From a virus: DNA of 33,448 bases. Positions 4,264 through 26,104 of the stretch are shown piece by piece. Position 1 is the stretch's first letter, and the number at the start of each line of letters is the position of its first letter. The DNA is taken from positions 1 through 33,448 of IMG/VR virus record IMGVR_UViG_3300020452_000357. The stretch is one strand, 5' to 3'. The notes below the pieces were generated by a model. The model was given only the letters and a program-made list of their open reading frames with translations, searched no databases and had not been told where the DNA came from. Both the position numbers and the translations under genes were made by a program.

Positions 4264-5075
4264 CAGATAGCTCCTCTTACCTTGATTTCTTTCACAATTG
4301 GGGACGAATTAGAGGCCGACTGCTCACGACACCAATAAAAAAGACGCAGCGGGCTGGCCGAGTTTGTATTGGTAAAAGTCGCGATGGTAACGCCGTCTTT
4401 TTGAAGCGTCACACTGCCTGAACTACCGGCGCGAGTGAGCGTAAAAATCTCATCACTTTCTACAGTAATTGTACCCGAACCGGAAGATTGAATATCAATG
4501 TCACTTCCGCCAAGTGCATTTACGCGGGAACTAGCTAATTTAATTGTGTCGGCTGTGGCAACGATAACGTAATAACTAACCGCAGCGGACAGACCCCCTG
4601 GCACAGTTGCTGTACTCTTAACAACAACGCGATCACCAGTATTAAAAGGGTGACCAGAAACTGAAAGTGCGTTATCTGCCAGGCTAATAGAAGTGACTTC
4701 CTGTGTTTTGCCGATAGTTGTAACTTGCGTTCCTGCTACATTTACACCGACTTTATTTGCCGCCGTAGACATACGGCCAAATCCCACGGCAAATATATTA
4801 GAACTAGCAGTGCTGATAAATGATTCACCCCAGCCAGATAAAGAATTAAGTTGAGAATCAACCGCTAAACCAACCGCCAGATTTGAAGCTCCAGAAGCAA
4901 GTGAGCCGGCTAACAAGTCAGCGTTTGCTTTAAAAGAAATAACTGCGTCGGTCGGGTCATCAGTGGGGTTTAGAAAAATTTGCGTGCCGAGGGCAAATGA
5001 AAATGGGCGATCCTCATTATTCGTAGGCTGACCATTTGACGACGTATTAACAAGACTTGAGCCGGTTACCGACAT
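4263..5075 (-). CDS. Fibre/adhesin-associated structural protein, 270 aa
   Basis: A 270-aa protein. Residues about 125-206 match a small beta module that recurs in phage structural proteins (GHPFNTGDRVVVKS, LSAAVSYYVIV, DTIKLASS, then a SSGSGTITV strand). The N-terminal 100 residues are unusual (PFSFALGTQIFLNPTDDPTD, then GWGESF) and I do not recognise them. The C-terminal part (LTRAGSSGSVTLQKDGVTIATF, LRLFYWCR, VKEIKVRG) looks like a lectin-type beta sandwich. It overlaps its neighbours by one base on each side, so it is translationally coupled within the fibre cluster. The probable role is a distal tail or fibre accessory protein; this is inference from position and beta-rich composition. 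Confidence 0.75.
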   Translation of the reverse strand: MSVTGSSLVNTSSNGQPTNNEDRPFSFALGTQIFLNPTDDPTDAVISFKANADLLAGSLASGASNLAVGLAVDSQLNSLSGWGESFISTASSNIFAVGFGRMSTAANKVGVNVAGTQVTTIGKTQEVTSISLADNALSVSGHPFNTGDRVVVKSTATVPGGLSAAVSYYVIVATADTIKLASSRVNALGGSDIDIQSSGSGTITVESDEIFTLTRAGSSGSVTLQKDGVTIATFTNTNSASPLRLFYWCREQSASNSSPIVKEIKVRGAI

Positions 5076-7222
5076 TAGACAACCCCGTTAGTTAGATAAA
5101 GATTCACATTTGGTGCAGTCTGAACTGCATAAGCGTCAGAACTTGTCGTATTCACAAGCCGCATCCACTGGGCGTTGTACTCTTGAGTTTTATCAAAGTT
5201 GGAATATGAGGCGTTAAAGGGTTTAGCGACAAATACCAACTCTGTCCTGTAAATAGGCTTTAAAACAGAAGCTACATTAGTGGTCAAGTCCAGTTCATAA
5301 TGAGCGACGAGGGTGTCACCCGCAGAAACACCTGACAGTACAGGCGTTGTATCTACTTTAGCCGCTTTAATAGTAAACGACCTGGAACTTTCGAGGGAGT
5401 GAACATAGTAACTTACTAGACCCTTTGAAATTCTTTGCCCTTGATAAAGGCGAATAGGAAACGCCTGATTAACAGTAATTACACCGGTAGAAGTATTAAA
5501 GGATTTAACACTGATCGAGTCAGACTTAATTGGGAACTCTGGAGGTGCATCGTACTCAGCCGAAATATTCTCACGATCTGACCCGAAGATCTCTTTCAGG
5601 TCTAAACTTTCACCCTGGCTGTCAACGATAAATTTACCTAAACAAGTACCTGATTTAACAATCCTGTAGTCATTAAAACTTACATCCAAAGTAAGCAAAT
5701 CACCAGAAGCATATTGTGTATTAACAGTCAATCTTTCATTTGTTGGGTCTTCTTGTGTAATCGCAAACTCTGTTTGTGTCCCGTCAAAGCTTGTAATTAA
5801 TTGTGGCACAAGGTTAAACGGAGATACATAATCTCCGGTCCTGTGACTTAAAGAACCGTTGAGGTGTCCTATTTCATCAGGCTCAACCATCACAGGATCT
5901 TTAAAGATCTCAAGCTCAATCAGATCTGAGGATCCTACATTTAAAACTAGGGGATTCGTGACAAGTAAGTTATCTACTAGCAAGCCATCATTGTTTAGCA
6001 GTTTCTGTCTGGCTCGAAGCGTCATAACGGAGACACCAGCGCCGTTGTACCTACCACCCAAAACAGGATTAACGGCAGTATCGAAGCCGGCGTCAACCGT
6101 GGTTATTTTTGCTTTATCTGCTGTACCACCATCAACAAGAATGCTGGCACCGTAACGCTCAATAAATTCTGAGCGTGCGAGGTTACCTGTGTTATTAATT
6201 TCGATCCATATTGGCAAGCTGGGGCTGCGTAGTGACGGAACATCAAACGAGCGGGTCCCCCCGGCCCCATCCGATTCGCTGAGGTCGTTTCTTTTAGCCG
6301 TATCCGCTAGAACAAGTTCATGCGCGAGGATCCAACGGGCACGAGGTATTTGAGTAATAGAAGTCGGAAGATCTTCATCTTCATCGACTAAAAAACAATA
6401 AAACCTGACATCAGATGCACCATACCAGCCCCATTCACAGAGCCACATATGCGTCTTAGATAAATCTAAATTAGCCTTAGATTTACCCGTGCCATCCAAC
6501 TTGTCGCCGGTCCACTCCGACCGAGGTACTGTTTTCTCAAACTTCAGCCCATTGCCCGCACTGTTTCTATAGAGAATGCTAAGCCGGTCACCTACACCGT
6601 CACCTTTGCACTGAACAAAAAATCCGTCTGAAGTATCACCAACACCCCAAAGACGAGTGACGCTTACAGGGGTGGAATCAACGCTTAGTTTGACGGCTAA
6701 ACTGACACGGACAATCCGACCGGGCTGATAACGGTAACGCTTTTTGGTACAAATACGCGCACGTTGAAAACCACCGTCGTTACTGTTTAAAAACAGCTGG
6801 GCAGAGGATGCGGATGAGTTGTATCGAACTTCACCGTTTGGTGAAGGCGAGTAAATAGCAGTCGCTTCTGATAGTTGTGTCCACCGAGCGGACTGGGTGC
6901 TGTCTATCTCAGGACGCTCGTTTAAACCTGTAACATCGTAAATCCAATTATCACTGTTTAGGTCGTAAGCGTCGTTTTGTGTAAGAAAGTCAAAGCCTCT
7001 CGTAACACGAGGGAAGCCTAAAAGATCCCGATCAATTTCAGTCGTGGAACGATAATTATCAATCGTGGGGAGGGTAAAACCCTTCCGTGGAAGAACCGTG
7101 GGGATACTTTCTGAGGCCTGCTTTTGTCCAGCGGGAAATGAACCGGCGGCCTGAACCTCCTCCCCGTTTGCTGTGACGGAGTTTTGCCCGACATCTTCGG
7201 GTAGTTGATAGGCCGTAGTCAT
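5075..7222 (-). CDS. Large distal-tail/fibre protein, paralogue of the neighbouring 539-aa protein
   Basis: A 715-aa protein. Its N-terminal two thirds align by eye with the upstream 539-aa protein. Shared landmarks are DLLGFPR versus DLLGIPR, Y-QPGRI versus Y-QTGRI, GDTSDGFFV versus FDTSDGYFV, RSEWTGD versus RSRWNGD, EWGWYG versus EFGWYG, ARWILAH versus ARWVIAH, PSLRSPSLP versus PSLGNPTLP, and YGASILVDGG versus YGAQVTIDGG. The extra C-terminal 200 residues include an ISKGLVSYYVHSL strand module like that in the 270-aa protein. The RSxWNGDKLDG-type signature is familiar from large structural proteins of marine and T4-like cyanophages. The probable role is a fibre or tail-tip adhesin; no catalytic motif is visible. 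Confidence 0.8.
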   Translation of the reverse strand: MTTAYQLPEDVGQNSVTANGEEVQAAGSFPAGQKQASESIPTVLPRKGFTLPTIDNYRSTTEIDRDLLGFPRVTRGFDFLTQNDAYDLNSDNWIYDVTGLNERPEIDSTQSARWTQLSEATAIYSPSPNGEVRYNSSASSAQLFLNSNDGGFQRARICTKKRYRYQPGRIVRVSLAVKLSVDSTPVSVTRLWGVGDTSDGFFVQCKGDGVGDRLSILYRNSAGNGLKFEKTVPRSEWTGDKLDGTGKSKANLDLSKTHMWLCEWGWYGASDVRFYCFLVDEDEDLPTSITQIPRARWILAHELVLADTAKRNDLSESDGAGGTRSFDVPSLRSPSLPIWIEINNTGNLARSEFIERYGASILVDGGTADKAKITTVDAGFDTAVNPVLGGRYNGAGVSVMTLRARQKLLNNDGLLVDNLLVTNPLVLNVGSSDLIELEIFKDPVMVEPDEIGHLNGSLSHRTGDYVSPFNLVPQLITSFDGTQTEFAITQEDPTNERLTVNTQYASGDLLTLDVSFNDYRIVKSGTCLGKFIVDSQGESLDLKEIFGSDRENISAEYDAPPEFPIKSDSISVKSFNTSTGVITVNQAFPIRLYQGQRISKGLVSYYVHSLESSRSFTIKAAKVDTTPVLSGVSAGDTLVAHYELDLTTNVASVLKPIYRTELVFVAKPFNASYSNFDKTQEYNAQWMRLVNTTSSDAYAVQTAPNVNLYLTNGVV

Positions 7223-8842
7223 TTAGCGTTGTCCCCAAGTGATGGCTGCTTTGACGGTGTTGGATGAGTTATCCAGCGAACGTGCCGCGATCACCAACAC
7301 ATCACCCGCAAGACCGGAGGCGGCAGTTGATTCCCGCGTGAGGTATTGACGGGCAAAGCTAAAAATGTCTGTCAAGCTCTCGGTGGTGGCGTCTGCATCC
7401 CCCGTGAAAAAGCTCGCGAGCTGTTCCCCGCCAGTAAAGGCGCTGATTGCGTTTGAGCTGCTGTCTGGGTTGTTTTGTTCGATAGCAGACAGGGTTCCGG
7501 TGCTAGCAAACGTGGTGACGGCTGCGGTGCCTGAATCGGTCATTGTGGTCGGGTTTTTGACCAAGATGAACTGTGCTCTGTGCGAGCTGACCATTGACAG
7601 CATCAACGGGAAAACACGCATTAGGTTGCGCTTAGATTCGCCTTGATTATTGGTAATAAGCTCTTTGATTCTGATAGCCAGCAAGGGCTTGAATGTGGAA
7701 GTACCTACTCCAGTAACTTTTGCGCCGTCCTCTGAGTAAATATCAAGCTTAGAAAAATCACCACCATCGATCGTAACTTGGGCGCCGTATTTCCTGATAT
7801 AAGCATTAGCATTTAATGAACCGGTCTTCTCTGCCCGGAACTGCATCGGCAAAGTAGGATTGCCAAGCGAGGGATAACTTATTCTGTCACTACAATTTAA
7901 ATTATGCGCGATAACCCACCTTGCAGTCTTAACTACTTCACCAGAAGGTAAATTTGCATCGACGGGTACATAGAACAATAGGCGTGCTCCAGTGCCACCA
8001 TACCAACCAAATTCAACCCTGCTCATACATAAGTTAGTGAGCGAAAGTTGATGCACTGAATTACTATCTACTGCCCCAATTAGCGCGGCTCCATTCTCAC
8101 CAACCATGGTGTCACCATTCCAGCGAGAGCGCGGAACAATCTCTTCCATAATTGTCGGAGAGGAAGAAACTAATTTATAAATCGTTCCGCTATCTGTACG
8201 GCTTGGTTGTGCTGTCATCACAGCAGCATCAACAGTAAAGGTGACTGGGTCAGAGCCTTGTTGGGTGTAACCCTTTAGGTGGTCTTGAGGGCGCTCACCA
8301 CTAGATGTACGTCGAACAAAAAACAACTCATCGCCGGTGACTCGTACAAAGTACCCGTCACTGGTATCAAACATGCCAAACTCTTGCGTGGCGTTTGAGT
8401 CCCGGCTAAGAGCCACACCAAACGAAGCGGAGGTAATTCGACCTGTTTGATAAGGAAAGCTTTGCTTAGTAATTAGACGAGCAATATTGCCATTCGAGGC
8501 ACCCGGAGTTAGAAGCACCTCAGCAGCCGATTGCTGCAAAATATGATTTACTTGAGTAACTCGTACTCCACCAGTTACTTGTTCATTAGTGGCCCACACA
8601 TTCTGCGAGATGTCCACCAAATTAGTGTCATCAAATATCGCAAGCGGGACTTGCGTTCTTGGGATTCCAAGCAAGTCATCCCTGACTTGAGACGGTGCAG
8701 ATAGATTATCAAGAATTGGGATCGGAGATTGATCCGATGCAACTACAACTGGGAGTGACTGGGCACTTGTAGCCTGACCAGCCGGAATCGGCGTAGTCTT
8801 GCCGACTGTTATAGTGCTTACACCTTCAGATACGGTCGCCAT
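7223..8842 (-). CDS. Distal-tail/fibre protein, 539 aa, paralogue of the 715-aa protein
   Basis: A 539-aa protein starting with ATG. Its N-terminus (SLPVVVASDQSPIPI, then DDLLGIPRTQ) is a linker pattern I associate with marine phage structural proteins. The central region carries TSDGYFVRV, RSRWNGDTM, EFGWYGGTGARLLF, ARWVIAHNL, YPSLGNPTLP and YGAQVTIDGG, all matched in order by the next gene. The C-terminal 130 residues differ from that neighbour and are helical and Ala/Ser-rich. The two genes touch end to end, consistent with tandem duplication followed by divergence of the C-termini. The role in the virion is inferred, probably a fibre or baseplate-peripheral protein. Confidence 0.8.
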   Translation of the reverse strand: MATVSEGVSTITVGKTTPIPAGQATSAQSLPVVVASDQSPIPILDNLSAPSQVRDDLLGIPRTQVPLAIFDDTNLVDISQNVWATNEQVTGGVRVTQVNHILQQSAAEVLLTPGASNGNIARLITKQSFPYQTGRITSASFGVALSRDSNATQEFGMFDTSDGYFVRVTGDELFFVRRTSSGERPQDHLKGYTQQGSDPVTFTVDAAVMTAQPSRTDSGTIYKLVSSSPTIMEEIVPRSRWNGDTMVGENGAALIGAVDSNSVHQLSLTNLCMSRVEFGWYGGTGARLLFYVPVDANLPSGEVVKTARWVIAHNLNCSDRISYPSLGNPTLPMQFRAEKTGSLNANAYIRKYGAQVTIDGGDFSKLDIYSEDGAKVTGVGTSTFKPLLAIRIKELITNNQGESKRNLMRVFPLMLSMVSSHRAQFILVKNPTTMTDSGTAAVTTFASTGTLSAIEQNNPDSSSNAISAFTGGEQLASFFTGDADATTESLTDIFSFARQYLTRESTAASGLAGDVLVIAARSLDNSSNTVKAAITWGQR

Positions 8843-8851
8843 AATAAAACT

Positions 8852-9571
8852 TTAGCTGGTGGAATCTCGTGAAATTCTTGGGATACACTCAAGTGTCCCG
8901 ATAGCCAATGTGTCTTCTTTATAGACTTTGACTGTGCCTTGAGTGGCCTCTACAGAAAATGCAGGAGCACCTGCAGTCGTAGGATCAATCTCAAAAACTT
9001 GACTACTAATAATACTTAGTTTATTAGCATTGAAATTAACCCCATCATATACTGTTTGACCTGTACTACTCAGAATAATCTGATCCTCAGAAGTAAGTTC
9101 GTGCGGGGCGGATGTGGTAATCCTTATTTTGTTGGCAGTAACACCACCTGCAGTAAATGTACTTCCTGAGGAAATACTTGTGATGGTTGCTTGATCAACT
9201 GAGAAGTATTCGCGCAGATCCCAAAGATAAGATCCTTGTGATTCATCGGTCGAATCAATGCCAACAGCTAAACCAGAAGCTGGCCTGTTTCGTTCGTCAT
9301 AGCCTAAGGGAGTATTCCGCCCTAGGGATTCTGTTTGGCGGCTTGATAGTTTTAAAGCAATCTTGCCTTTGGTAGGATCTAGTTCAACAATTCCAAAGCT
9401 GCCAACCTCATGGGCCGGTGTTTGGCTGTCATTAAAAAATCGCCTAATATCAGCAACCAACACAGAATTTGAAATGTCGTGAGGAGTCCCCCACGGCTTT
9501 TCGATAACTAGGTGCAATTCATCGAAGCTATCACCCTCGCGAACTGTGACGGCGATATTATCTAGGGCCAT
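8852..9571 (-). CDS. Ig-like baseplate/fibre-attachment protein with inserted beta module
   Basis: A 239-aa protein. The N-terminus (VREGDSFDELHLVI, WGTPHDISNSVLVADIRR, GKIALKLSSRQT, SYLWDLREYF) resembles the Ig-like N-terminal domain of phage baseplate upper proteins (BppU-like or DUF2479-like). In that fold the last strand usually follows directly and ends in a pattern like LEG-x-V-x-V-x-PRVTR. Here that strand (GTLECIPRISRDS, about 225-237) is separated from the rest by about 95 residues (126-218). The insert contains an APHELTSEDQIILSSTGQ motif similar to the module in the 270-aa protein. It precedes the two large paralogues and may dock them to the tail tip. The function is inferred from fold resemblance and position. 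Confidence 0.7.
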   Translation of the reverse strand: MALDNIAVTVREGDSFDELHLVIEKPWGTPHDISNSVLVADIRRFFNDSQTPAHEVGSFGIVELDPTKGKIALKLSSRQTESLGRNTPLGYDERNRPASGLAVGIDSTDESQGSYLWDLREYFSVDQATITSISSGSTFTAGGVTANKIRITTSAPHELTSEDQIILSSTGQTVYDGVNFNANKLSIISSQVFEIDPTTAGAPAFSVEATQGTVKVYKEDTLAIGTLECIPRISRDSTS

Positions 9572-11100: not shown

Positions 11101-13764
11101 TTAAGTAGTAGCGTTATTAATTGTAAATTGAATACTACTTCGTTTCACCCTGGAATTTGTTGCTCTTACAGTTGTAGATGACCCGTAGCCAATTCCAGAA
11201 TTTGAATCAAAAAGCTCGCCGTCTTCAATAAAATCAAACTTTCTTTCAACATACAAAATCGCAACGACAGAGAAAGTGCCATCACCAGATTCTTTTACGG
11301 ATTGTACTCTGTACCTTCTAAATGTATTTTCGTCATCTTCATCGACAAGAATAAACATCTGGGCACTAGACGGTGTACTGGTGAAAGAGTTTTCGATGGT
11401 GATATCTCTATTTGAAATTGTGCTTACTTTGTTTCGTTGTGCAATTCCAGTATCCCCGTATGTATAGACATACCAATCCTTTGTCAGGTCGTGACTACCC
11501 AGATCTCGATCAACAGTTAACCGTGTACTATTTGCACTTACGATCCTGCCGCCAGAACTAATTTGAGTCTTAAGGGGATCAGCAATAACAACAATATCGC
11601 CAGGAAGTAGCATCGCTCCCTCAGTTGCGACTTTAAAAGAAACTGTTTCCGTATTTAAAATATTGCTACCCAAGACATAACGACCCAACCTTCGAGCCTG
11701 TTCTCTATCCGTACAGCCCATTGCTCTGAGTGACTTGTGGTTGTACCCATAGCGTTGGATAGCGTCGGAGTCCTCTACAACCTCTTTATTCTCCTTATAG
11801 AACTCGGAAGGGTTGACCCAACTAACCTCAACCACTGACGTTCGGGCTTGTCTGCCAGTGCCCTCATAAGAAAAACAGGGGGCGGTTACTTGTCCGTTAC
11901 CTCCAACCTCTTGAATTACATTCGCCTCTGAATACAACCTGAATAAGCGGTGGATGCTACGCTGCGCGTGTAAGACCTTTCTATCTAAAACAAGGGTTAC
12001 ATAGCCTCCAGCGTAAACTAAAGAACCGTGGAAAGAAGAAGCAACGCTACGCACAAGATCTAGGGCGTCTGCTTTGCTGTTGATATATGCGTTAAAGGTA
12101 AAACGTTTTTTACCGTTGACCCTTTCGTCACAATATTGCGCTGCTGTATAGAACGAAGCCAAGTCGATGTCGTTCATACTTATGCCTGGAGTTGATCTAT
12201 CTACTGGTGTAGTAGGATGCGTAGTTGTATAATCTGAACGACCAAGTCCATACCTGGGGTTGGTTAATAGATCAAGCAACACATAAACAGGATTATCGCT
12301 GTGAGCGTAGCTGACTCTTAAACTACTACTTAAAACAGGAACCTTTAACCCCTTCATTAGAACCTGAAGTGAAGGCATTTGATTAAACTCTGAAGCTTCA
12401 AATCTGACGCCGACTAAAGATGTCCCTGGATAAATAAGTTTTTCAGCCCAAGTAACGTCCGCGGAAACCAGCTGCACGTCTCCTTTAGCCCACTGAAAAT
12501 TATATTGATTGGCCCCACCAGTAAATGTATCCGCGTCGGGAGCGGCACTTTTGTCAAGCCTGGTTAATTGAATAGATATCGGTACAGGTTTATTAGTGAT
12601 GTTGTAGGTTCTAATTTGTAACTTTCTTGCTTTAAGCTTCCTTTCTATAACGTCAAATGAATCATTTCCTTCACTATCGGTAATTGCGTCACCGTCTCCA
12701 TCGAAGACTCGTAAAACATACTGAAGGGGCTGAATTGGGTAATTTCCATCTGCATCCTTAGGTCTGTCGTCATATCGATCGTCGTCATGCGGCCTTTCAT
12801 CGTAATCTCTGTACTTACTGTCGGTGCTACCGCCGTCCTTTGGACTTCGGGTGCGTACTTGATAACAGGGCCCGCGTGTTAAACGGATTTTCAATTCATC
12901 GGCTGAGGTTTGAGCAAAGCTGCGAATCACCTGTGGATTCGGATCATTATCACCTGGAGTTTGTAAAGTCGATCCAATGCCTAGGTGAAAACCTGCAGAT
13001 TTAACACCAGTAATGCGAACAGCGTCTTGAGTGCCGTCTGTCACCTGAATATTGTCAATCGCTGTGCTGCTTGCTCTAAGGCCATTAAAATAAATATCTT
13101 CACTAGATCCGTTTGGAAAACCTTCAATAGGTCCCTCGGAAATAATCGCCAGTAAATACCCCTCTTCCTCTTGAATGTAGGAAGAAACAATAGGCATATT
13201 ATTTGCCAAATGCGTCCCATACAACAAAGGAATAGGCGTGCCTGCAGTGCTAGTTTTGGCCCCTCCTCCAAAAACAGCATCGTCGGCCTCGCTCCCTTCC
13301 TGCTTGCCTTCCTCAGGGACACCCGGTGCCATCAATCCTGATATTCCTGTAAATATCAACCCGGCACCCAAAACAATCATTGCTGATTGGAAACCGGCTG
13401 AGATTGTTCCTACCCCACCGAACGACATAAGACCCACACCGGGCAACGCCAAAGCCAGCAGCAGAACACCGACTGCAATAAGTCCAAAGGAAAAACCTTT
13501 TCCGCCAAACAATGCACCCGTGATTACGGGGACCAAGACAAATTCACTGCAACCGAGCGCCATCTCGTCGTAAGAAGTGGCTGTCGAATTATTTCGCTTG
13601 ATTTGAAAATATATTCCATGCTCATGTGCCGAGGTCATGAACTCTCGAAAGCCTGGCACTAATTGGCACAAAGAACGAATTGCTTCGTTCACATTTTTAA
13701 CATTCAGTTGATAATGACCGCCAAATCGCTTTGCAAGGACTCCCTCAAGTCTGATATCCATCAT
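11101..13764 (-). CDS. J: Tail tip/host-specificity protein J with fused tail assembly protein I-like N-terminus
   Basis: An 887-aa protein. Residues 1-80 (VLAKRFGG, VNEAIRSLCQLVPGFREF, FVLVPVITGA) match the ubiquitin-like start of lambda tail assembly protein I. Residues about 91-145 are strongly hydrophobic and Gly-rich, as in protein I. GTPIPLLYG (about 175) and ISEGPIEGF (208-216) then begin the J-type tip protein, followed by LDLLTNPRYGLG and the later hub-like domains. In lambda I and J are separate genes; here they are one reading frame. J forms the tail tip and contacts the receptor. This J part is only about 690 residues against 1132 in lambda, so the long receptor-binding end is probably replaced by the downstream fibre genes. 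It overlaps the K-like gene by ATGA. Confidence 0.88.
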   Translation of the reverse strand: MMDIRLEGVLAKRFGGHYQLNVKNVNEAIRSLCQLVPGFREFMTSAHEHGIYFQIKRNNSTATSYDEMALGCSEFVLVPVITGALFGGKGFSFGLIAVGVLLLALALPGVGLMSFGGVGTISAGFQSAMIVLGAGLIFTGISGLMAPGVPEEGKQEGSEADDAVFGGGAKTSTAGTPIPLLYGTHLANNMPIVSSYIQEEEGYLLAIISEGPIEGFPNGSSEDIYFNGLRASSTAIDNIQVTDGTQDAVRITGVKSAGFHLGIGSTLQTPGDNDPNPQVIRSFAQTSADELKIRLTRGPCYQVRTRSPKDGGSTDSKYRDYDERPHDDDRYDDRPKDADGNYPIQPLQYVLRVFDGDGDAITDSEGNDSFDVIERKLKARKLQIRTYNITNKPVPISIQLTRLDKSAAPDADTFTGGANQYNFQWAKGDVQLVSADVTWAEKLIYPGTSLVGVRFEASEFNQMPSLQVLMKGLKVPVLSSSLRVSYAHSDNPVYVLLDLLTNPRYGLGRSDYTTTHPTTPVDRSTPGISMNDIDLASFYTAAQYCDERVNGKKRFTFNAYINSKADALDLVRSVASSFHGSLVYAGGYVTLVLDRKVLHAQRSIHRLFRLYSEANVIQEVGGNGQVTAPCFSYEGTGRQARTSVVEVSWVNPSEFYKENKEVVEDSDAIQRYGYNHKSLRAMGCTDREQARRLGRYVLGSNILNTETVSFKVATEGAMLLPGDIVVIADPLKTQISSGGRIVSANSTRLTVDRDLGSHDLTKDWYVYTYGDTGIAQRNKVSTISNRDITIENSFTSTPSSAQMFILVDEDDENTFRRYRVQSVKESGDGTFSVVAILYVERKFDFIEDGELFDSNSGIGYGSSTTVRATNSRVKRSSIQFTINNATT

Positions 13765-14102
13765 GATCCAAGGATCCTCTCAAAAATTTCTAAGCCTTGT
13801 GATGATGACCATTTTTCAAGACGGTCGGATTCAATCACATAAACGTATGACGTTAACTCCATATTCGCAGCTACGTTCAAGTCGTGTTCGCTAAATCCAT
13901 TCTTACCTTTGGGGTGCGAATGATAAATGGTTTCTGGTCTGTATTTAAGCCATGTATCCGCATCCATCATGAAACACTCCTTAGGATCTTCCGCCATGTT
14001 GGCGCAGGGAATTGCTTTACCATCCACAACGCAGCCACAAGCCTCCAGAGGAGCCGCTTTAAGAGACTGTTTTGCTATTGCTTTGTGAAGTCTTTTACTC
14101 AT
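13761..14102 (-). CDS. K: Tail assembly protein K-like JAMM peptidase, single domain
   Basis: A 113-aa protein when started at the ATG at 14102, which overlaps the stop of L as TAATG. A longer reading to 14189 would overlap L by 88 bases and is less likely. The JAMM/Mov34 zinc peptidase motif is complete: Glu20 in PLEACGCV, then HSHPKGKNGFSEHD with His61, His63, Ser71 and Asp74. Lambda K carries this domain plus a C-terminal NlpC/P60 domain. Here nothing follows the JAMM domain, so the cell-wall-cleaving half is absent. Family members act in tail tip assembly and may process partner proteins. It sits between L and the I-J fusion, matching lambda gene order. Confidence 0.88.
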   Translation of the reverse strand: MSKRLHKAIAKQSLKAAPLEACGCVVDGKAIPCANMAEDPKECFMMDADTWLKYRPETIYHSHPKGKNGFSEHDLNVAANMELTSYVYVIESDRLEKWSSSQGLEIFERILGS

Positions 14103-14776
14103 TAACCTTGAACCGTAGGGAACCCTCCATACCTGAGATCCGCATTTCTTCCAAACCTTTCGCGACATCCCTGAAGAGTCTTTGGACATCCATCAGGCAA
14201 GCCTGCGTGTGCAACATTTGCTCCCGGGTATGTGCATTCCGGCCCCCTATATTCAAAAGGGCAAAAATTACTAAACATTCTGCGCCTCGGTAAGCTCATA
14301 CCCTCCACATCAAAAATAGAGGTCAACTCATAATTGATACTTAAACTGTTCTCGTTGGTTTTTCTAGAGAAGTACCAGTAATCGGGGGTAAAGTGCGCGT
14401 CTTTGTCATAACTACTTTGCGTTGTACCATTGCCGAATTTATCAACAAACTTTGCAAAAGTTCTTATTCGTATAAGTCTAAAACCGATTAAATCATCGTA
14501 GTCTTTGGACAATCTAGTAAATACACCATCAACATTAGAAACAGTCAACTTCGGATTTGGCAGCTTGTTACTGCCTGATATCTCAATGCCACCAAATTGG
14601 ATGGGATGAGTCGAATATCTAATGTTTTCATTACCGGCCTCGTTGACATAGGTAACACTCTCACCGCCTGTCTGTTCTGGCGATACAAAATGCCTTCTAG
14701 CAAAAGATGGTGTGAATTGAGCGTTGTTTGAGTCGATTATAAAAAGACTCAAAAGTGCATCTTGCTTAAGTGCCAT
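14102..14776 (-). CDS. L: Minor tail protein L (Fe-S cluster type)
   Basis: A 224-aa protein starting with ATG at 14776 in a TGATG junction with the previous gene. The N-terminal part contains the beta domain typical of L (PIQFGGIEISGSNKLPNP, LIGFRLIRIRTF, YWYFSRKTNEN, YELTSIFDVEGMSLPRRR). The C-terminal region has four cysteines at 172, 181, 197 and 204 in FCPFEYRGPECTYP and DGCPKTLQGCRERF. Lambda L coordinates an iron-sulfur cluster through a comparable C-terminal cysteine set, and the length is close to lambda L (232 aa). The protein joins the tail tip between the tube/tape measure and J. Identification rests on motifs and order M-x-L-K-I/J. Confidence 0.9.
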   Translation of the reverse strand: MALKQDALLSLFIIDSNNAQFTPSFARRHFVSPEQTGGESVTYVNEAGNENIRYSTHPIQFGGIEISGSNKLPNPKLTVSNVDGVFTRLSKDYDDLIGFRLIRIRTFAKFVDKFGNGTTQSSYDKDAHFTPDYWYFSRKTNENSLSINYELTSIFDVEGMSLPRRRMFSNFCPFEYRGPECTYPGANVAHAGLPDGCPKTLQGCRERFGRNADLRYGGFPTVQG

Positions 14777-15589: not shown

Positions 15590-15946
15590 TCAAAAAGCCT
15601 CCTGAAGTGTGAACTGCAAAGTCTCTCTGAATGTATCGCTTACAGTTAAAAGTTTTCTTTGGTATCCCCCATCTTTGATCCTGTATCTACGGGATTCAGA
15701 ACTAAACGGGGTCAGTGTGGCAACAAAATAATCGCCCTTAATGACACGATCCAGATTTGTACGCAGTGTTAATGAATCAGCCGTTGATAAAGGTCTTGTA
15801 GTAACGCTGTACTCGGTAATACGAGTGTTTGCGCCATCGGCTGCTATCTGCTCATAACCATCACCAAATCCAAATCTTTTTGTGCGATGGTTGGTGGTTT
15901 CTTGAACCTCACGAAGTAGGTCCAAAGTCAAATTAACGTCGGCCAT
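15590..15946 (-). CDS. M: Minor tail protein M-like
   Basis: 118 aa when started at the ATG at 15946, which has GGGAGGA 10 bases upstream; a start at 15976 would lack an RBS. It overlaps the end of the tape measure gene by 14 bases. Lambda M-type landmarks are visible: TKRFGFGDGYEQIAADG near the N-terminus, ATLTPFSSESRRYRIKDGGY in the middle, and LTVSDTFRETLQFTLQEAF at the end. M-type proteins form a distal tail ring linking the tube to the tip, between tape measure H and L. Position directly after the tape measure agrees. Length is close to lambda M (109 aa). Confidence 0.85.
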   Translation of the reverse strand: MADVNLTLDLLREVQETTNHRTKRFGFGDGYEQIAADGANTRITEYSVTTRPLSTADSLTLRTNLDRVIKGDYFVATLTPFSSESRRYRIKDGGYQRKLLTVSDTFRETLQFTLQEAF

Positions 15947-18900
15947 TGTAAAGAAGTCCTCCCGAACGGCGCTCATCCATGATGACTCGCTTAACAGCTG
16001 AGTCGATGGCTAGGCCTAATTTGTTTGCGTTATCACCTTCAGTATCGGTGGAAGCATTTCCACCTTGATCCACATTAACGGTGATATTTGTATTTACATT
16101 ACTTCCCGCAGATTTCTTACCCATATCGATCGGTATGGACTTGCCATCTGGAAGTGGGACGACAGCTTCATTCATACCACCTTCACCAATTAGCGCTCTG
16201 GTAGGTCGAGTAACAATGCCTCCCTTTGCCATTTTCTTTTCTCCACCGCCAAAAAGGCCTGAGAGGAATCCCAGAAGCCCTCCGCCACCAGCACCGCCTC
16301 CCCCTCCGCCGCTCATAAGGGCTCCCGCAGGCATTCCCGTCGCAGCTGAAATTACTGAGATCAGTATTAGTTTTGCAATCATCTGAGTTGCCAACTTCAA
16401 GAAACTCTTTCCAATATCTGCAAAGAAATTCTGAAATGCTTCGCCAATCGTGGCGGTGCCTGATACCACATCATTAATTGCATTGCCCAGACTGGATTCA
16501 ACCATTCCAGCCATATCAACCATGCGGCCTTCAATATCACCCAGATACTGTAAATTGCTTGAGACATATCCGGCTAATTTACTATTGTTGGCCGCTTGAG
16601 CCTCAGACAGCTCATTAATTGATGTGGTTGCAGCTTGCGCTGCCTCGTCTAGATCTGCGACCGCGATATTATACATATCTTGGTTTAGCTTGCCTGAAAT
16701 AAGACCTTCATTAAGTTGAGCAACATTCACAGTACGCACACGATCAATTTCATTTACTGCCATTAATCGTTCGATCTGCTCAGGACTAAATCCTTCAAGC
16801 ATTAATCGATTGCGTTCTCTTAACGCCTGCGCTTCAAGCTTCGCCCCGGCTGCACGTTCTCTGAAGCCTGCCGTTGTTTGAGCAACCATCATCCCTAGCG
16901 CGTTGTTGCGCATTTCGAGGGTTTCTCCTGCAAACTGCTCACGTTGATCCTGGGCTCCAGTCAAGCCTGTTTGTGCCCTTGTAACCCCTGTCTGTGCTCT
17001 TGCACGATCAACCGGGTCACTTGCTGCATCTAGGCGTGCTTGAGCCGCTCTTAGGCGGTTCTCCGCAGCCGTGATATTTGCATCGAGCTGTTCTACTTGT
17101 GCATCAATAGCCCTGTTGGCTTCGACAAAGCTGTTAATTATTCCGAGCTGTGTTCTGGCTTCACCTGTCAATAATGACTCTGCTAATCGATGCCTTTCGG
17201 TAAGAAGCTTTGACTCAATCTGAAAACGCTGTCTGACCAGCGCCAGCGTTTGTCTAGCAAGTAGCTGCTCATTGCGCAGCCTGGCGTCAGAGTAAATTTT
17301 TGCAATGCGTGGTGCATCCTTGGCTGCTTTCTTGGCTGCTTCTTCACGGGCCTCATTTGCTTCCTTTTCCTCCCTTTCACGCCTGTCTGAGACGGTTTCA
17401 GGCGGGTTGACCGGGGTCAGACGACTCTTACCGTCAGTCTCGTACTCAATACCTCCGATCGTGCTGTTCGGAATAATTACATCAATAATCAGCTTCCGAC
17501 GCTTTGTAAGTTCATCTATCTTTCCCTTAAGCTCATTAATCTTTCGCTGGAATTCCTTAATTTCAGCCTCTTGACCTACATAGAATGCAGCCTTTTTGGC
17601 ATTGCTTAGGGCCTTTTCATACTTAACAGTAGTTTCCTGTAGCTTTTTAACTTGCTCATCAACCTCAGTTACATCCTCGGTATTCAGCGCATCATCAAAT
17701 TCCTGCTTCTTTCTGGTTGCGTCTTGTATTGACGCAGCAAGCAGTACAAACGGAGCAGCAATAAGTGCAATCTTGGCAGCAAGAATCGCAATTGGTATTA
17801 ACGCCGCCGCACTTGCAAAACCTAGAAGCTTCACCGCTCCTGCAAGAGCTGCAACACCAAGTCCTGCCGACGCAGCTACCGCACCAAACGTTTTTAACGG
17901 CTTTGGTAGATCGTTAAGAGTATTTAATAGATTAGTTAAAAGCTTAACAAGGGGTTCAACGACTGGTAGTAACGCATCGCCAATAGATATAGCAGCATCG
18001 TCAATTGAATTGCGCAGTGACTGAAAAGTTTGAGATGGTGAAAGTGCTATAAGTTCTTTGATCTTCTCGCTGTTTGCGTCAAAGCCTCTAGAGAGTGCTC
18101 CAACCAAAACCTCAGATGTAATCTTGCCTTCGGAACCTAGCTTTTTCAGCTCTCCAACTGTGACACCCATTTCTTTGGCAACAGGCACCAAAATACCGGG
18201 TATCTGCTCCGCAATTGATCTAAATTCATCACCTTGGAGACGACCACTTCCGAGCGCTTGCGCGAGCTGTTGGAAGGCAACTCTGCTCTCATTCGCAGAA
18301 GCGCCACTAGCCAGAGCAACCGCATTAAATCCTTTATAAACCGTCTGGATTTTGCTTAGTTCAAATCCAAGTGGACGCAGTCGAGCATATACGTTTGCGA
18401 ATTCTTGAGTTGCGTCTCTTTGTGATTTATTGAATTGAAGTTGGTTACTCTCAATGAGTTTTAGAATTTTTGAATATTCCCCATACTCCCTAGATAGAAC
18501 CGACAGTTTTAGCTGTTGCTGCTCCAGATCTACAGAGGCACCAACTGATCCTGAAAGTGCTGCGCCAGCCCCCAGGGTCGTGGCAAGAGGCCCCAAACCG
18601 CCCCCTGGTCCCATTGCACCCCGAACACCTGCAAACGGTGTTCCGACCGCACCCCGGACCTTCCCCATAAAGGAGGCCTGCCTTGGTGCAGGGATGCTGG
18701 GGGCTCGACCCGGGCCTGTTATTTGTGGAAGGCCGGGAGCTTGTAGCGTTTTTAATCTTGTGAACTCTCTAGCAAAATCTTTGGCTTCTTTTTTGCCTTT
18801 TCGTAAGGCCTCAGTAGTTCGAGTAAGTTTTTTATTTAGATGTTCAACCTTGGCAGCAGCTTCTTTAGCGCCCTGTACCGTTTGATCTTTAAACTTGCTT

Positions 18901-19106
18901 GCAGCTGTTACAGATTTATTAAATTCCTTTCTTGTTTTATTTACCGCGACTGCCAGTCTGGCGTTTCCTGTCTCTCTTTTCTTAAGCTGATCCTCGGTAG
19001 CCTTAGTAGATTTTTCAACTTCCTTCGCAAATTTTGTCTGCTCCTTAATAGCCTGAGCAGCGCCTTTGACGTTGATTGTATATGTATATTGACCTTGACT
19101 TGCCAC
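15933..19106 (-). CDS. H: Tail tape measure protein
   Basis: A 1057-aa protein starting with GTG at 19106; no in-frame ATG lies nearby upstream. Residues 1-120 are Lys/Glu-rich coiled coil, then a Pro/Gly linker. Residues about 190-345 match the tape measure N-terminal domain (DLEQQQLKLSVLSREYG, QEFANVYARLRPLGF, QLAQALGSGRLQGDEFRSI, EQIPGILVPVAKEMGV, KITSEVLVGALSRGFD). Residues about 405-465 are very hydrophobic, as expected for membrane insertion during DNA entry. Long helices follow, with repeated RAQTGVTRAQTGLTGAQ. The end has a Gly-rich stretch and GGIVTRPTRALIGEGGMNE, typical of lambda H-like C-termini. At about 0.15 nm per residue the tail would be near 160 nm, a rough inference. Confidence 0.95.
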   Translation of the reverse strand: MASQGQYTYTINVKGAAQAIKEQTKFAKEVEKSTKATEDQLKKRETGNARLAVAVNKTRKEFNKSVTAASKFKDQTVQGAKEAAAKVEHLNKKLTRTTEALRKGKKEAKDFAREFTRLKTLQAPGLPQITGPGRAPSIPAPRQASFMGKVRGAVGTPFAGVRGAMGPGGGLGPLATTLGAGAALSGSVGASVDLEQQQLKLSVLSREYGEYSKILKLIESNQLQFNKSQRDATQEFANVYARLRPLGFELSKIQTVYKGFNAVALASGASANESRVAFQQLAQALGSGRLQGDEFRSIAEQIPGILVPVAKEMGVTVGELKKLGSEGKITSEVLVGALSRGFDANSEKIKELIALSPSQTFQSLRNSIDDAAISIGDALLPVVEPLVKLLTNLLNTLNDLPKPLKTFGAVAASAGLGVAALAGAVKLLGFASAAALIPIAILAAKIALIAAPFVLLAASIQDATRKKQEFDDALNTEDVTEVDEQVKKLQETTVKYEKALSNAKKAAFYVGQEAEIKEFQRKINELKGKIDELTKRRKLIIDVIIPNSTIGGIEYETDGKSRLTPVNPPETVSDRREREEKEANEAREEAAKKAAKDAPRIAKIYSDARLRNEQLLARQTLALVRQRFQIESKLLTERHRLAESLLTGEARTQLGIINSFVEANRAIDAQVEQLDANITAAENRLRAAQARLDAASDPVDRARAQTGVTRAQTGLTGAQDQREQFAGETLEMRNNALGMMVAQTTAGFRERAAGAKLEAQALRERNRLMLEGFSPEQIERLMAVNEIDRVRTVNVAQLNEGLISGKLNQDMYNIAVADLDEAAQAATTSINELSEAQAANNSKLAGYVSSNLQYLGDIEGRMVDMAGMVESSLGNAINDVVSGTATIGEAFQNFFADIGKSFLKLATQMIAKLILISVISAATGMPAGALMSGGGGGGAGGGGLLGFLSGLFGGGEKKMAKGGIVTRPTRALIGEGGMNEAVVPLPDGKSIPIDMGKKSAGSNVNTNITVNVDQGGNASTDTEGDNANKLGLAIDSAVKRVIMDERRSGGLLYNGRR

Positions 19107-19137: not shown

Positions 19138-19581
19138 TCATGTGGTAATAACTTTATTCAAAGCTGCAATCACATGCACAGGCAATTTTTTCAGTTGTAT
19201 TAGCTTTTTAATTACCTGCTGGGTCTCCATTCTAGAAGCACTATGTTCAGGATTAAGATCGAACGGCAAATACTCTGTTAAAGGGATTTGCTTGGCTTTG
19301 TTTTTACCACCACCGAAACTCTGAGCAATTGCCACCACAATCGAAGTCAGCCTGGCTGTAGTCATCGAATAGGTATTCGCTAAGCGTTTATCACGCTCAC
19401 CACCAAGCCGGATGACTTCAAAGATGCACTGCATAGGCATCTCTAGAAATTCAGCTTTATCGATGTTCTGTCCTATAGGAGTTGCTTTGAACTCCGTGTA
19501 AGCCATCAGTAAATCAACTTCTGAGGTCGCCAAATATTCGCGCAATGTCGCAATTCTGGTGTTGACGACCTCAAGGGTTAG
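19138..19581 (-). CDS. T: Tail assembly chaperone GT: T extension reached by -1 frameshift
   Basis: This frame has no credible independent start: it opens with TTG at 19545 without an RBS. A -1 slip at GGGAAAC in the G gene joins it in phase, reading through L-T-L-E-V-V-N-T-R-I-A-T into LREYLATSEVDLLMAY. The predicted GT product is 314 aa (167 from G, 147 from here). T-type extensions bind tube subunits while G binds the tape measure during assembly. The segment is helical, with FEVIRLGGERDKRLANTYSM and a final VIKKLIQLKKLPVHVIAALNK. It ends 31 bases before the tape measure start, matching the G-GT-H order of siphophages. Confidence 0.88.
   Translation of the reverse strand, partial: LTLEVVNTRIATLREYLATSEVDLLMAYTEFKATPIGQNIDKAEFLEMPMQCIFEVIRLGGERDKRLANTYSMTTARLTSIVVAIAQSFGGGKNKAKQIPLTEYLPFDLNPEHSASRMETQQVIKKLIQLKKLPVHVIAALNKVITT
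19522..19573 (-). promoter_or_regulatory. Candidate frameshift-stimulating stem-loop
   Basis: TGAGGTCG (19566-19573) is exactly complementary to CGACCTCA (19522-19529), an 8-bp stem enclosing 36 bases. A further T-G pair at the base and an inner CCA/TGG plus AAT/ATT helix could extend it. The stem starts 7 bases after the slippery heptamer, the spacing usual for structures that stall ribosomes and stimulate -1 frameshifting. It lies inside the T coding frame. The complementarity is seen directly; the stimulatory role is inferred. Confidence 0.6.
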
Positions 19582-20081
19582 TTTCCCTCGTCTTCCTCCT
19601 CTTCACCCTCAGGCCAACCATTACGCTCCCATTCGACAAATGAATAGATTTCATCCAGCAATTTGCTGGGCATCTCTTTGGTGTCGGTCTCTTCCCAATC
19701 AGAAGTTTTCGCCCACTTGCCTTTTTCTTTGTATTCAGCTCGATAACGCATTAACAGCGTTACCGTTTGGATTTTTTGTTCGCTGGCGGATTGACCGCTG
19801 CTCTGAATTGCAGCAAGCTCATCCACATAATCGAATAGGACATCTTGATTCTCGTCGGCGTTTCCTAAAATGTCTAGAGCTTCCTGAACAGGAATATCCC
19901 GTTTTAGTGAAAGATCGCGTGCGATCTTTAGCAGCTTGTATGTATTAGCTGCTTGCTGTCTTCCGACCTCCTCAATACCTTCGATCTCCCCGGCAACTAA
20001 GTCCTTATAGATCGGAAAGCGAAAGGGTGGAATGTCGTAATACTTTTTCTGGCCAAAAAATACTTTTGAATACTTACTCAT
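19578..20081 (-). CDS. G: Tail assembly chaperone G
   Basis: A 167-aa protein starting with ATG at 20081 in an ATGA overlap with the 76-aa gene. It is mostly helical and acidic: FRFPIYKDLVAGEIEGIEEV, ANTYKLLKIARDLSLKR, VQEALDILGNADENQDVLFD, ending GWPEGEEEEDEGN. Siphophage G proteins coat the tape measure and recruit tube subunits. They lie directly before the tape measure gene and share a start with a frameshifted GT form; both conditions are met here. The slippery GGGAAAC overlaps its last codons. Sequence similarity to lambda G is not obvious; the call rests on position, acidic helical character and the frameshift architecture. Confidence 0.88.
   Translation of the reverse strand: MSKYSKVFFGQKKYYDIPPFRFPIYKDLVAGEIEGIEEVGRQQAANTYKLLKIARDLSLKRDIPVQEALDILGNADENQDVLFDYVDELAAIQSSGQSASEQKIQTVTLLMRYRAEYKEKGKWAKTSDWEETDTKEMPSKLLDEIYSFVEWERNGWPEGEEEEDEGN
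19581..19587 (-). other. -1 programmed frameshift slippery heptamer GGGAAAC
   Basis: In the G reading frame the sequence reads GAG GGA AAC TAA, so the heptamer G GGA AAC fits X XXY YYZ exactly and is followed at once by the G stop codon. Lambda uses GGGAAAG in the same position. The -1 frame is open from here through the T region to 19138. Confidence 0.9.
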
Positions 20082-20308
20082 CTGATGATGTAAAACGAGG
20101 TATCAGCAGCCACAACCTCAAAGGGTTGATTCGCGCCTTTTTCAGAAATTTCTACTAATAAACTAGCACCATCTTCCGTCACAAGTTCTAAAGGCGAGGG
20201 CGTAGAGGGGGCGATGTAAACCGCCCCAACCTCTAGTAGCTCTTTGTGTGATCTGCAATTAACAAAATAAGAACGTGCGTCCTTAGATAAGAGCAGATCA
20301 AACTTCAT
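20078..20308 (-). CDS. Unknown 76-aa protein between tube protein and G
   Basis: A 76-aa ORF starting with ATG at 20308, which overlaps the tube protein stop by one base, and ending in an ATGA overlap with G. The sequence is a mix of helix and strand: MKFDLLLSKDARSYFVNC, then LELVTEDGASLLVEISEKG and a final TSFYIIR. No motif is recognised. Coupling on both sides supports translation. Small genes in this slot occur in some siphophages, but their function is unknown to me. Confidence 0.75.
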   Translation of the reverse strand: MKFDLLLSKDARSYFVNCRSHKELLEVGAVYIAPSTPSPLELVTEDGASLLVEISEKGANQPFEVVAADTSFYIIR

Positions 20309-20901
20309 CAGCCGTAGATGTCAATCTTGGAGGTGGCTTGCTCCAACATACCGCTATAGATTTGACCACGGCTAGAGAAAGTCCAGCTCAGTTCCAACAA
20401 ACCATCAGCAGGTGTCGATTCACTAATATCGCTCACACCTGCACAAAAACCACGTACGTGATAATCAAATTTAGGCCCGGTGTCTTCTCCCATAAAGGTG
20501 AGAACCTCGACGTAAACTTCTTTATTAAGATTGTGCTCCGCGGCCAAGATCAAGGCCAGAGCAGGGTCGGCTGCAGGGACTGATGCAACAGCACCGGTAG
20601 CCGGTACGGTGTCCAACGTGAAATATGCCGTGCAAGCAAGATCACCGGCAAGTGAAGTTCCCACAGAATCCCGATAACCCTCGTCTCCAAGCAGGAAAAA
20701 CTCTTGGTTATTAGTTACAGGGGTGTAATCAGCCGTGATCAGGCCTTTTAGGCCGAGCATGGTTACGCCGTCTGGGCTTTCATACGTTGCCGTGTGGCTG
20801 CCTGAAGTAAAAGTTTTAGCAGCTAGACGGGTCGGGGCATCGACTACTCGCACGATGCGATCCCGGCCCCTGACAAAAGCTGCACCTGGAAGTTGGGCCA
20901 T
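20308..20901 (-). CDS. Major tail (tube) protein
   Basis: A 197-aa protein starting with ATG (MAQLPGAAFVRGRDRIVRVV). The beta-rich sequence (MLGLKGLITADYTPVTNNQEFFLLGDEG..., YEVLTFMG-like strands, LLELSWTFSSRGQIYSG) fits a tail tube subunit of the lambda V / Hcp-like fold. The pattern of a central helix (DPALALILAAEHNL) between strands and a final strand-loop is typical. It lies just after the tail terminator-like gene and before the chaperones, the conserved siphophage order. It would polymerise around the tape measure in hexameric rings. Family assignment is by context and composition rather than a clear motif. Confidence 0.8.
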   Translation of the reverse strand: MAQLPGAAFVRGRDRIVRVVDAPTRLAAKTFTSGSHTATYESPDGVTMLGLKGLITADYTPVTNNQEFFLLGDEGYRDSVGTSLAGDLACTAYFTLDTVPATGAVASVPAADPALALILAAEHNLNKEVYVEVLTFMGEDTGPKFDYHVRGFCAGVSDISESTPADGLLELSWTFSSRGQIYSGMLEQATSKIDIYG

Positions 20902-25690: not shown

Positions 25691-26104
25691 TCAATTTATT
25701 AGGTATTGATCCCAGTCAAATGCTGCTTTCTTTTTCCAGCAGCGCTTTTGAGGATCTACCCAGACCAGTGTACGTTTACCTATTGTCGCACTAATAGGTA
25801 CAAGCCAAATACTGTCGTAGTCCAAATTAATTATCCCAAAATAATCCACCTCATCAGCCGAATAAGGCTGATCTCTAACGCCGTTTCTTTTAGTTCCGAT
25901 ATTTACGGTGTAATTATTGGCCCGTTTGTCGTGTGACATCGTTTTGACTTGTACCTTTACAAGTCGGTTCTGCCACTCCAGAACGAAGTCAACCTTAAAT
26001 AAATCAAATCTTGGAGCCGCAATAAGACAACCCGCTCCGAAAAAATGGCGCTCAAAAGCCATTTCTCCCAGAGAACCTGTTAAGCAGGAGGTGTGCGCAG
26101 GCAA
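25691..26104 (-). CDS. Freestanding PD-(D/E)XK endonuclease-like protein
   Basis: A 137-aa ORF starting at TTG 26104; the frame is open upstream to 26122 but has no ATG, and no RBS is evident, so the start is uncertain. The pattern GSLGEMAFERHFFGAG (Glu14), FKVDFVLEW (Asp39), VKVQVKTMS (Gln52-Lys54), then DEVDYFGIINLD, fits the PD-(D/E)XK restriction-endonuclease fold, in particular the family that includes the cyanobacterial intron nuclease I-Ssp6803I. In such families the E ... D ... (E/Q)xK residues bind metal and cleave DNA. It is the only nuclease-like gene apart from large terminase in an otherwise structural operon, between the DUF5872-like gene and the protease. A homing endonuclease or an endonuclease acting on rival DNA are possible roles. 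Confidence 0.7.
   Translation of the reverse strand: MPAHTSCLTGSLGEMAFERHFFGAGCLIAAPRFDLFKVDFVLEWQNRLVKVQVKTMSHDKRANNYTVNIGTKRNGVRDQPYSADEVDYFGIINLDYDSIWLVPISATIGKRTLVWVDPQKRCWKKKAAFDWDQYLIN

Follow-up and report, generated by a model that had tools for sequence, protein, structure and literature searches.

A probable programmed −1 frameshift joins two putative tail-assembly chaperones in an uncultivated marine phage family

The window, a 33,448-nucleotide stretch of DNA from an IMG/VR-type virus record, carries its structural module on the minus strand. Within this module, a short gene (G) stops directly after the heptamer GGGAAAC, and the −1 frame behind it (T) stays open almost to the tape-measure gene. 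This arrangement raises the question of whether ribosomes slip at the heptamer and fuse G to T. Our analysis indicates, with a probability of about 0.93, that a programmed −1 frameshift at G_GGA_AAC joins the two as putative tail-assembly chaperones. The basis is sequence and its comparison among relatives, namely the phase of the heptamer and its conservation, a conserved open −1 frame, a covarying stem, a preserved stop, and the position of the genes; from these, we predict that the slip occurs, how efficient it may be, and what roles the chaperones would play.

Gene order and the signal in the window

Gene G (19578..20081, minus strand) encodes 167 amino acids, ends in WERNGWPEGEEEEDEGN before its stop codon, and reads as tail-assembly-chaperone-like from its open reading frame (ORF) and its IMG/VR homologues. 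Its last codons are GAG GGA AAC TAA, which place GGGAAAC at 19587-19581 (minus strand) in X_XXY_YYZ phase with G. No stop interrupts the −1 frame for 147 codons, until a TGA at 19140-19138, so that T (19138..19581, minus strand) would start with Leu-Thr after the slip and the G-T fusion would comprise 314 amino acids. Across 31 minus-strand ORFs, we found 34 in-frame X_XXY_YYZ heptamers; only the GGGAAAC of G abuts its stop, and the next nearest starts 55 nt before the end of its ORF. Judged on one genome, a heptamer at the stop is moderate evidence, and the frameshift case becomes decisive because the heptamer is conserved in relatives. The sequence-only reading had described the heptamer, its phase, the adjoining stop, the open −1 frame, and a predicted fusion of 314 aa; the heptamer, phase, stop, open frame, and predicted length were all confirmed in the ORFs of the window, and the heptamer with its phase is kept in relatives.

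The neighboring genes follow a lambda-like tail order. Directly 3′ of T, in the position of lambda H, lies the tape-measure protein gene (15933..19106, minus strand), which is supported by Pfam TMP_3 (E 2.5e-33) and many PHROG tape-measure families and begins with a GTG 31 nt past the T stop. Genes matching Phage_tail_L, Prok-JAB and Phage-tail_3 lie beyond it. On the other side, the ORF at 20308..20901 (minus strand) probably encodes the major tail protein, an assignment made from gene order: its place before G and its size are suitable, and it has no profile match in Pfam or PHROG. The order of short gene and tape measure is the same in a relative (L005). The nearest isolate for the capsid protein is Synechococcus phage S-CBS4, at 51% identity, and this phage also carries a G homologue (29% identity, E 2e-13).

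Several features of the surrounding minus strand were recorded on their own account. A 76-aa ORF (20078-20308) lies between the probable major tail protein gene and G, and L005 likewise has a 75-aa ORF there. The called ORFs of the lambda K-like Prok-JAB gene (13761-14189) and the Phage_tail_L gene (14102-14776) overlap by 88 nt, and the Prok-JAB gene likely has a later start. A PD-(D/E)XK_5 endonuclease-like gene (25691-26104) sits within the head module. Two adjacent tail-fibre-like genes (5075-7222 and 7223-8842) can be aligned across 473 columns at 26% identity (E 3e-42), and comparison of the two suggests that the pair at 5075-8842 arose by internal duplication.

Searches of Pfam and PHROGs returned no significant match of G or T to an annotated chaperone family, and the G homologues matched no annotated chaperone family in NCBIfam. 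A PDB sequence search gave nothing significant, Rfam gave no match, and we found no cellular or prophage relatives. The AlphaFold models are of low confidence (pLDDT 64 and 70). In a PDB fold search the HK97 tail chaperone ranked second at a nonsignificant E of 2.7 from a low-confidence model, and fold comparison was dropped as evidence of identity because the models are too weak. Since the ORFs of different phages share low similarity in chaperone pairs (PMC5009743), likeness in sequence or fold is not strictly defining for chaperones. Two high-ranking fold matches in BFVD, A0A346A5Z9 for G (E 8e-4) and A0A346A600 for T (E 0.22, not significant), bear consecutive accessions, so the two proteins may come from neighboring genes in a single phage.

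Conservation of the heptamer and the T frame

To compare the site among relatives, we searched viral contigs with G as the query. A first scan gave 37 loci, and at all 37 a TAA or TGA stands immediately behind GGGAAAC. Profile scans extended the set to 90 distinct IMG/VR sequences, each of which has exactly one in-frame GGGAAA followed by C, G or A, located behind the residues W-E-R-N-G-W-P or variants of them. The heptamer is GGGAAAC in 71, GGGAAAG in 17, and GGGAAAA in two. Its last base changed at least nine times on the tree and the heptamer was never lost; because this base switches without such loss, the GGGAAAG of lambda represents a neighboring state of the same signal. The sequence-only reading was right that the last base differs from that of lambda, but the base is not unusual, since sister clades within the family use GGGAAAG and the haloarchaeal virus HCTV-1 has G_GGA_AAC. 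It had also named relatives lacking both the heptamer and a phased T frame as the observation that would speak against frameshifting, and the heptamer was kept in 90/90.

Synonymous variation was analyzed in 35 near-clade fusions over 323 codon columns and reaches its fusion-wide minimum around the slip site. Four codons show no synonymous change (each 35/35): GGA and AAC of the heptamer, GAG at T codon 4, and ACC at T codon 19. In the near clade, the acidic C-terminal linker of G varies in length and the final Gly-Asn is invariant.

The T protein is conserved from the first residue after the slip (LT.E...R...(L)REYLATS). Diversity in T codons 1-9 lies mainly at third positions (0.53 versus 0.18 and 0.27), and hhalign finds the T homologue of S-CBS4 in the −1 frame of that phage as well (probability 96, E 2e-9). 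We considered whether T might instead be translated as a protein apart from G, through re-initiation or from a start of its own, with the heptamer incidental. Start codons do exist in the T frame of the window (TTG 19545, TTG 19533, and ATG 19506), and a TTG-started ORF of 135 aa can be called; the earlier claim that T has no start of its own therefore holds for a conserved start and fails for starts as such. However, the first ATG, GTG or TTG in the relatives ranges from codon 4 to codon 55, whereas protein conservation begins at codon 1, and no Shine-Dalgarno-like sequence is evident by eye before TTG 19545. In some relatives the first start is codon 55 (L014 and L015) or codon 47 (L029 and L039), so the conserved part of T is not made by internal initiation there. 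Conservation from codon 1 together with scattered starts argues that the conserved T is translated by ribosomes arriving from G. The in-phase heptamer, invariant among relatives, also speaks against a separate T, and we regard this reading as very improbable. The chance that the two frames come from faulty assembly, or are one gene that has decayed through a frameshift, is close to nil, because the same arrangement occurs in 90 distinct sequences from many metagenomes and both frames are under purifying selection, which effectively excludes either cause.

Downstream stem, adjacent stop and upstream GAGG

A perfect 8-bp stem (19573-19566 paired with 19529-19522) begins 7 nt past the heptamer and encloses a 36-nt loop, as the sequence-only reading had described. 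The minimum free energy (MFE) fold carries it further, to 13 bp (11 Watson-Crick and two G-U) between a 5′ arm at 19562..19574 and a 3′ arm at 19521..19533 (minus strand; 19574-19562 with 19533-19521), and reduces the loop to 28 nt. The stem length is thus about 12-13 bp rather than 8, and the helix proposed to form inside the 36-base loop proved to be mostly a continuation of the main stem. Its energy is −23.7 kcal/mol (z −2.9 over 78 nt), a value matched by one in 200 dinucleotide shuffles; z falls to −3.8 when 60 nt are folded alone, and overall the fold z is about −3 to −4.

Comparison of the relatives confirmed the stem. Pairing is present in 83% of cells (74% in shuffles), changes on both sides number 44 (13 in shuffles), and covariation is 0.329, compared to 0.130 in shuffles and at most 0.08 in slid controls; 0/500 shuffles reach the observed value for pairing, both-side changes or covariation. 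RNAalifold gives the stem unprompted, and when all column pairs within 190 nt were scanned without bias, its two helices ranked first. The same scan yielded no further helix with real covariation, and a pseudoknot was rejected.

Both arms lie within conserved T codons, which raises the possibility that the stem is a by-product of the coding constraint on T (E-V ... A-T-S). The covarying pairs 18/69, 24/63, and 27/60, however, link third codon positions to third codon positions, a pattern that the encoded protein leaves unexplained. The fixed T codons 4 and 19 sit in the paired core of the stem, where GAG and ACC are kept although GAA and ACN would be synonymous. In addition, related clades (L076, L082, L086, and L087; L091, L094, and L096) form different stems that also start ~7 nt downstream. 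Taken together, these observations make a coding by-product highly unlikely. Not every relative has such a stem: where the stop lies 24-60 nt downstream, there is little trace of one, and most members of that clade show none.

The zero-frame stop itself (TAA, 19578..19580, minus strand) is adjacent to the heptamer in 50/90 relatives and lies 3-60 nt downstream in the other 40/90. Where it adjoins GGGAAAC, T codon 1 is CTA at 28 loci and CTG at 15 (43/43), which yield TAA and TGA as stops, and never CTC or CTT, although these two make up 48% of CTN codons elsewhere in T. At the same loci the first base of T codon 2 is A throughout, whether the residue is Thr, Ser, Lys or Asn, and the adjacent stop was kept through at least four CTA/CTG switches. 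Because codon 1 is restricted to CTA and CTG and codon 2 keeps its A while its residue varies, it is the nucleotides of the stop, and not the residues, that are preserved.

A Shine-Dalgarno-like GAGG (19595..19598, minus strand) ends 7 nt 5′ of the heptamer, and 34/37 near-clade sequences have it at this distance. Codon −5 is GAG in 34/34 rows with Glu, whereas almost every other Glu column contains both GAG and GAA. The anti-Shine-Dalgarno energy is −7.7 kcal/mol, compared to −6.8 ± 0.46 kcal/mol for codon-shuffled linkers. We rejected this element as a proven stimulator because codon shuffling showed that the acidic linker codons alone yield most of the energy; a dnaX-like upstream stimulator is a weakly supported possibility. 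The motif occurs twice on the minus strand, here (19598-19595) and in the 5′ arm of the stem (19572-19569), and it is possible that the CCTC of the 3′ arm pairs with the upstream copy instead of the 5′ arm.

We also compared these elements with each other. A stem with z ≤ −2 is found at 39/43 adjacent-stop GGGAAAC loci and at 1/22 loci with the stop more than 20 nt away, a difference that reflects very few independent changes. A correlation of the stem or the Shine-Dalgarno-like element with the adjacent stop, or with AAC versus AAG, was dropped, as independent changes are few and an independent-pairs test was unsupportive.

These data support the G/GT frameshift interpretation of the sequence-only reading, with heptamer, phase, stop, stem, and open T frame all conserved in relatives. 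According to the proposed mechanism, most ribosomes would end at the stop abutting the heptamer and free gpG. A minority would be delayed by the stem-loop 7 nt downstream, their Gly and Asn tRNAs would re-pair one base back on GGG AAA, and they would continue in the −1 frame (Leu-Thr-...) to give the 314-aa gpGT. In lambda, loading of the tape measure and recruitment of tail-tube subunits fall to gpG and gpGT (PMC5009743). By analogy, gpG would coat the tape-measure protein, a few gpGT copies would recruit the major tail protein through their T domain, the slip rate would set the G:GT ratio, and neither protein would remain in the finished tail. Since AAC as the second slip codon is described as mammalian-like, whereas G_GGA_AAG is the heptamer on which ribosomes of E. 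coli readily slip (PMC5009743), slip efficiency may be low. A reporter study of two HK97-type chaperone genes measured 6-7% frameshifting (PMC3711429), a figure that gives the scale and not the rate of this site.

A variant of this mechanism, rather than an alternative to frameshifting, places the slip one step later, when the tRNAs occupy the E and P sites and the A site holds the stop, so that the release factor competes directly with the slip. The stem, and perhaps the upstream GAGG, would then act on the state with the stop in the A site. Experiments with overexpressed release factor led to the proposal that bacterial ribosomes slip in this E/P-site state when a stop follows the heptamer (PMC4373837), and the persistence of the adjacent stop through the codon switches above is consistent with it. 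The Watson-Crick stem begins 10 nt from the first base of AAC and 13 nt from the first base of GGA. A stem at a distance of 11-12 nt from the P codon impedes the A site, an effect that is relieved at 13 nt (PMC7282821); these spacings speak in favor of the later slip, but the geometry matches neither ribosome state exactly. Furthermore, the 40 relatives with a more distant stop keep the heptamer all the same, and stop adjacency has few independent origins. On balance we consider the later slip rather unlikely. Its fullest form, a compact signal of GAGG 7 nt upstream, G_GGA_AAC, A-site stop, and hairpin 7 nt downstream in which a post-translocation slip competes with the release factor, appears more doubtful still. 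If it were true, the gpG:gpGT ratio, and through it the assembly of tails, would depend on how active the release factor is.

Comparison with known frameshift systems

For an uncultivated marine phage family and for S-CBS4, the frameshift reading provides a correct gene model, including a chaperone extension that no library searched recognizes and that in S-CBS4 was deposited as a truncated separate ORF. The 90 natural variants, which differ in the last heptamer base, the stop distance, and the stem, form a large series for testing how the position of the stop and the stimulators determine the −1 rate.

S-CBS4 has a homologous G (29%) and T in the gp032/gp033 region, at the same place before the tape measure. 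It differs in having an in-frame A_AAA_AAA in the overlap and a stop 39 nt downstream. In the deposited record both appear as hypothetical proteins, G starting later and T cut short: in this genome (L002) gp032 is annotated from 8070, and gp033 is an ORF on the scale of 74 aa (8750-8971). The homologous reading (8001-8543, 8504-8968) starts G at 8001 and passes through A_AAA_AAA at 8498-8504 into a longer −1 T.

The E. coli dnaX signal consists of A_AAA_AAG, an upstream Shine-Dalgarno-like element, and a downstream hairpin. The window resembles it in its heptamer and downstream hairpin, and possibly in an upstream element that pairs with the anti-Shine-Dalgarno, a likeness to which GAGG lends weak support. 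However, dnaX is an unrelated gene, and 5 nt (AGUGA, PMC7282821) separate its heptamer from the hairpin, compared to 7 nt in the window.

The likeness to lambda lies in a short G with a −1 extension, GGGAAAN at the 3′ end of G, a G-T pair directly upstream of the tape measure, and L, JAB-domain, and Phage-tail_3 genes downstream. The lambda heptamer is G_GGA_AAG, whereas the last base in the window is C. Unlike lambda, the window has a stop directly after the heptamer and a strong covarying stem 7 nt downstream, and in the libraries searched its G and T are not recognizably similar to those of lambda or to other annotated chaperones. The g-t frameshift of the haloarchaeal tailed virus HCTV-1 uses G_GGA_AAC (PMC5009743), the same heptamer in the same gene pair; HCTV-1 differs in being an archaeal virus, and the comparison covers the heptamer and the gene pair. 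In conclusion, the mechanism is already known from lambda and the heptamer from HCTV-1, and the window adds a new, unusually well supported case, in which three features are possibly noteworthy: a stop kept right behind the slip site, a stem that covaries, and the fixed GAGG 7 nt upstream.
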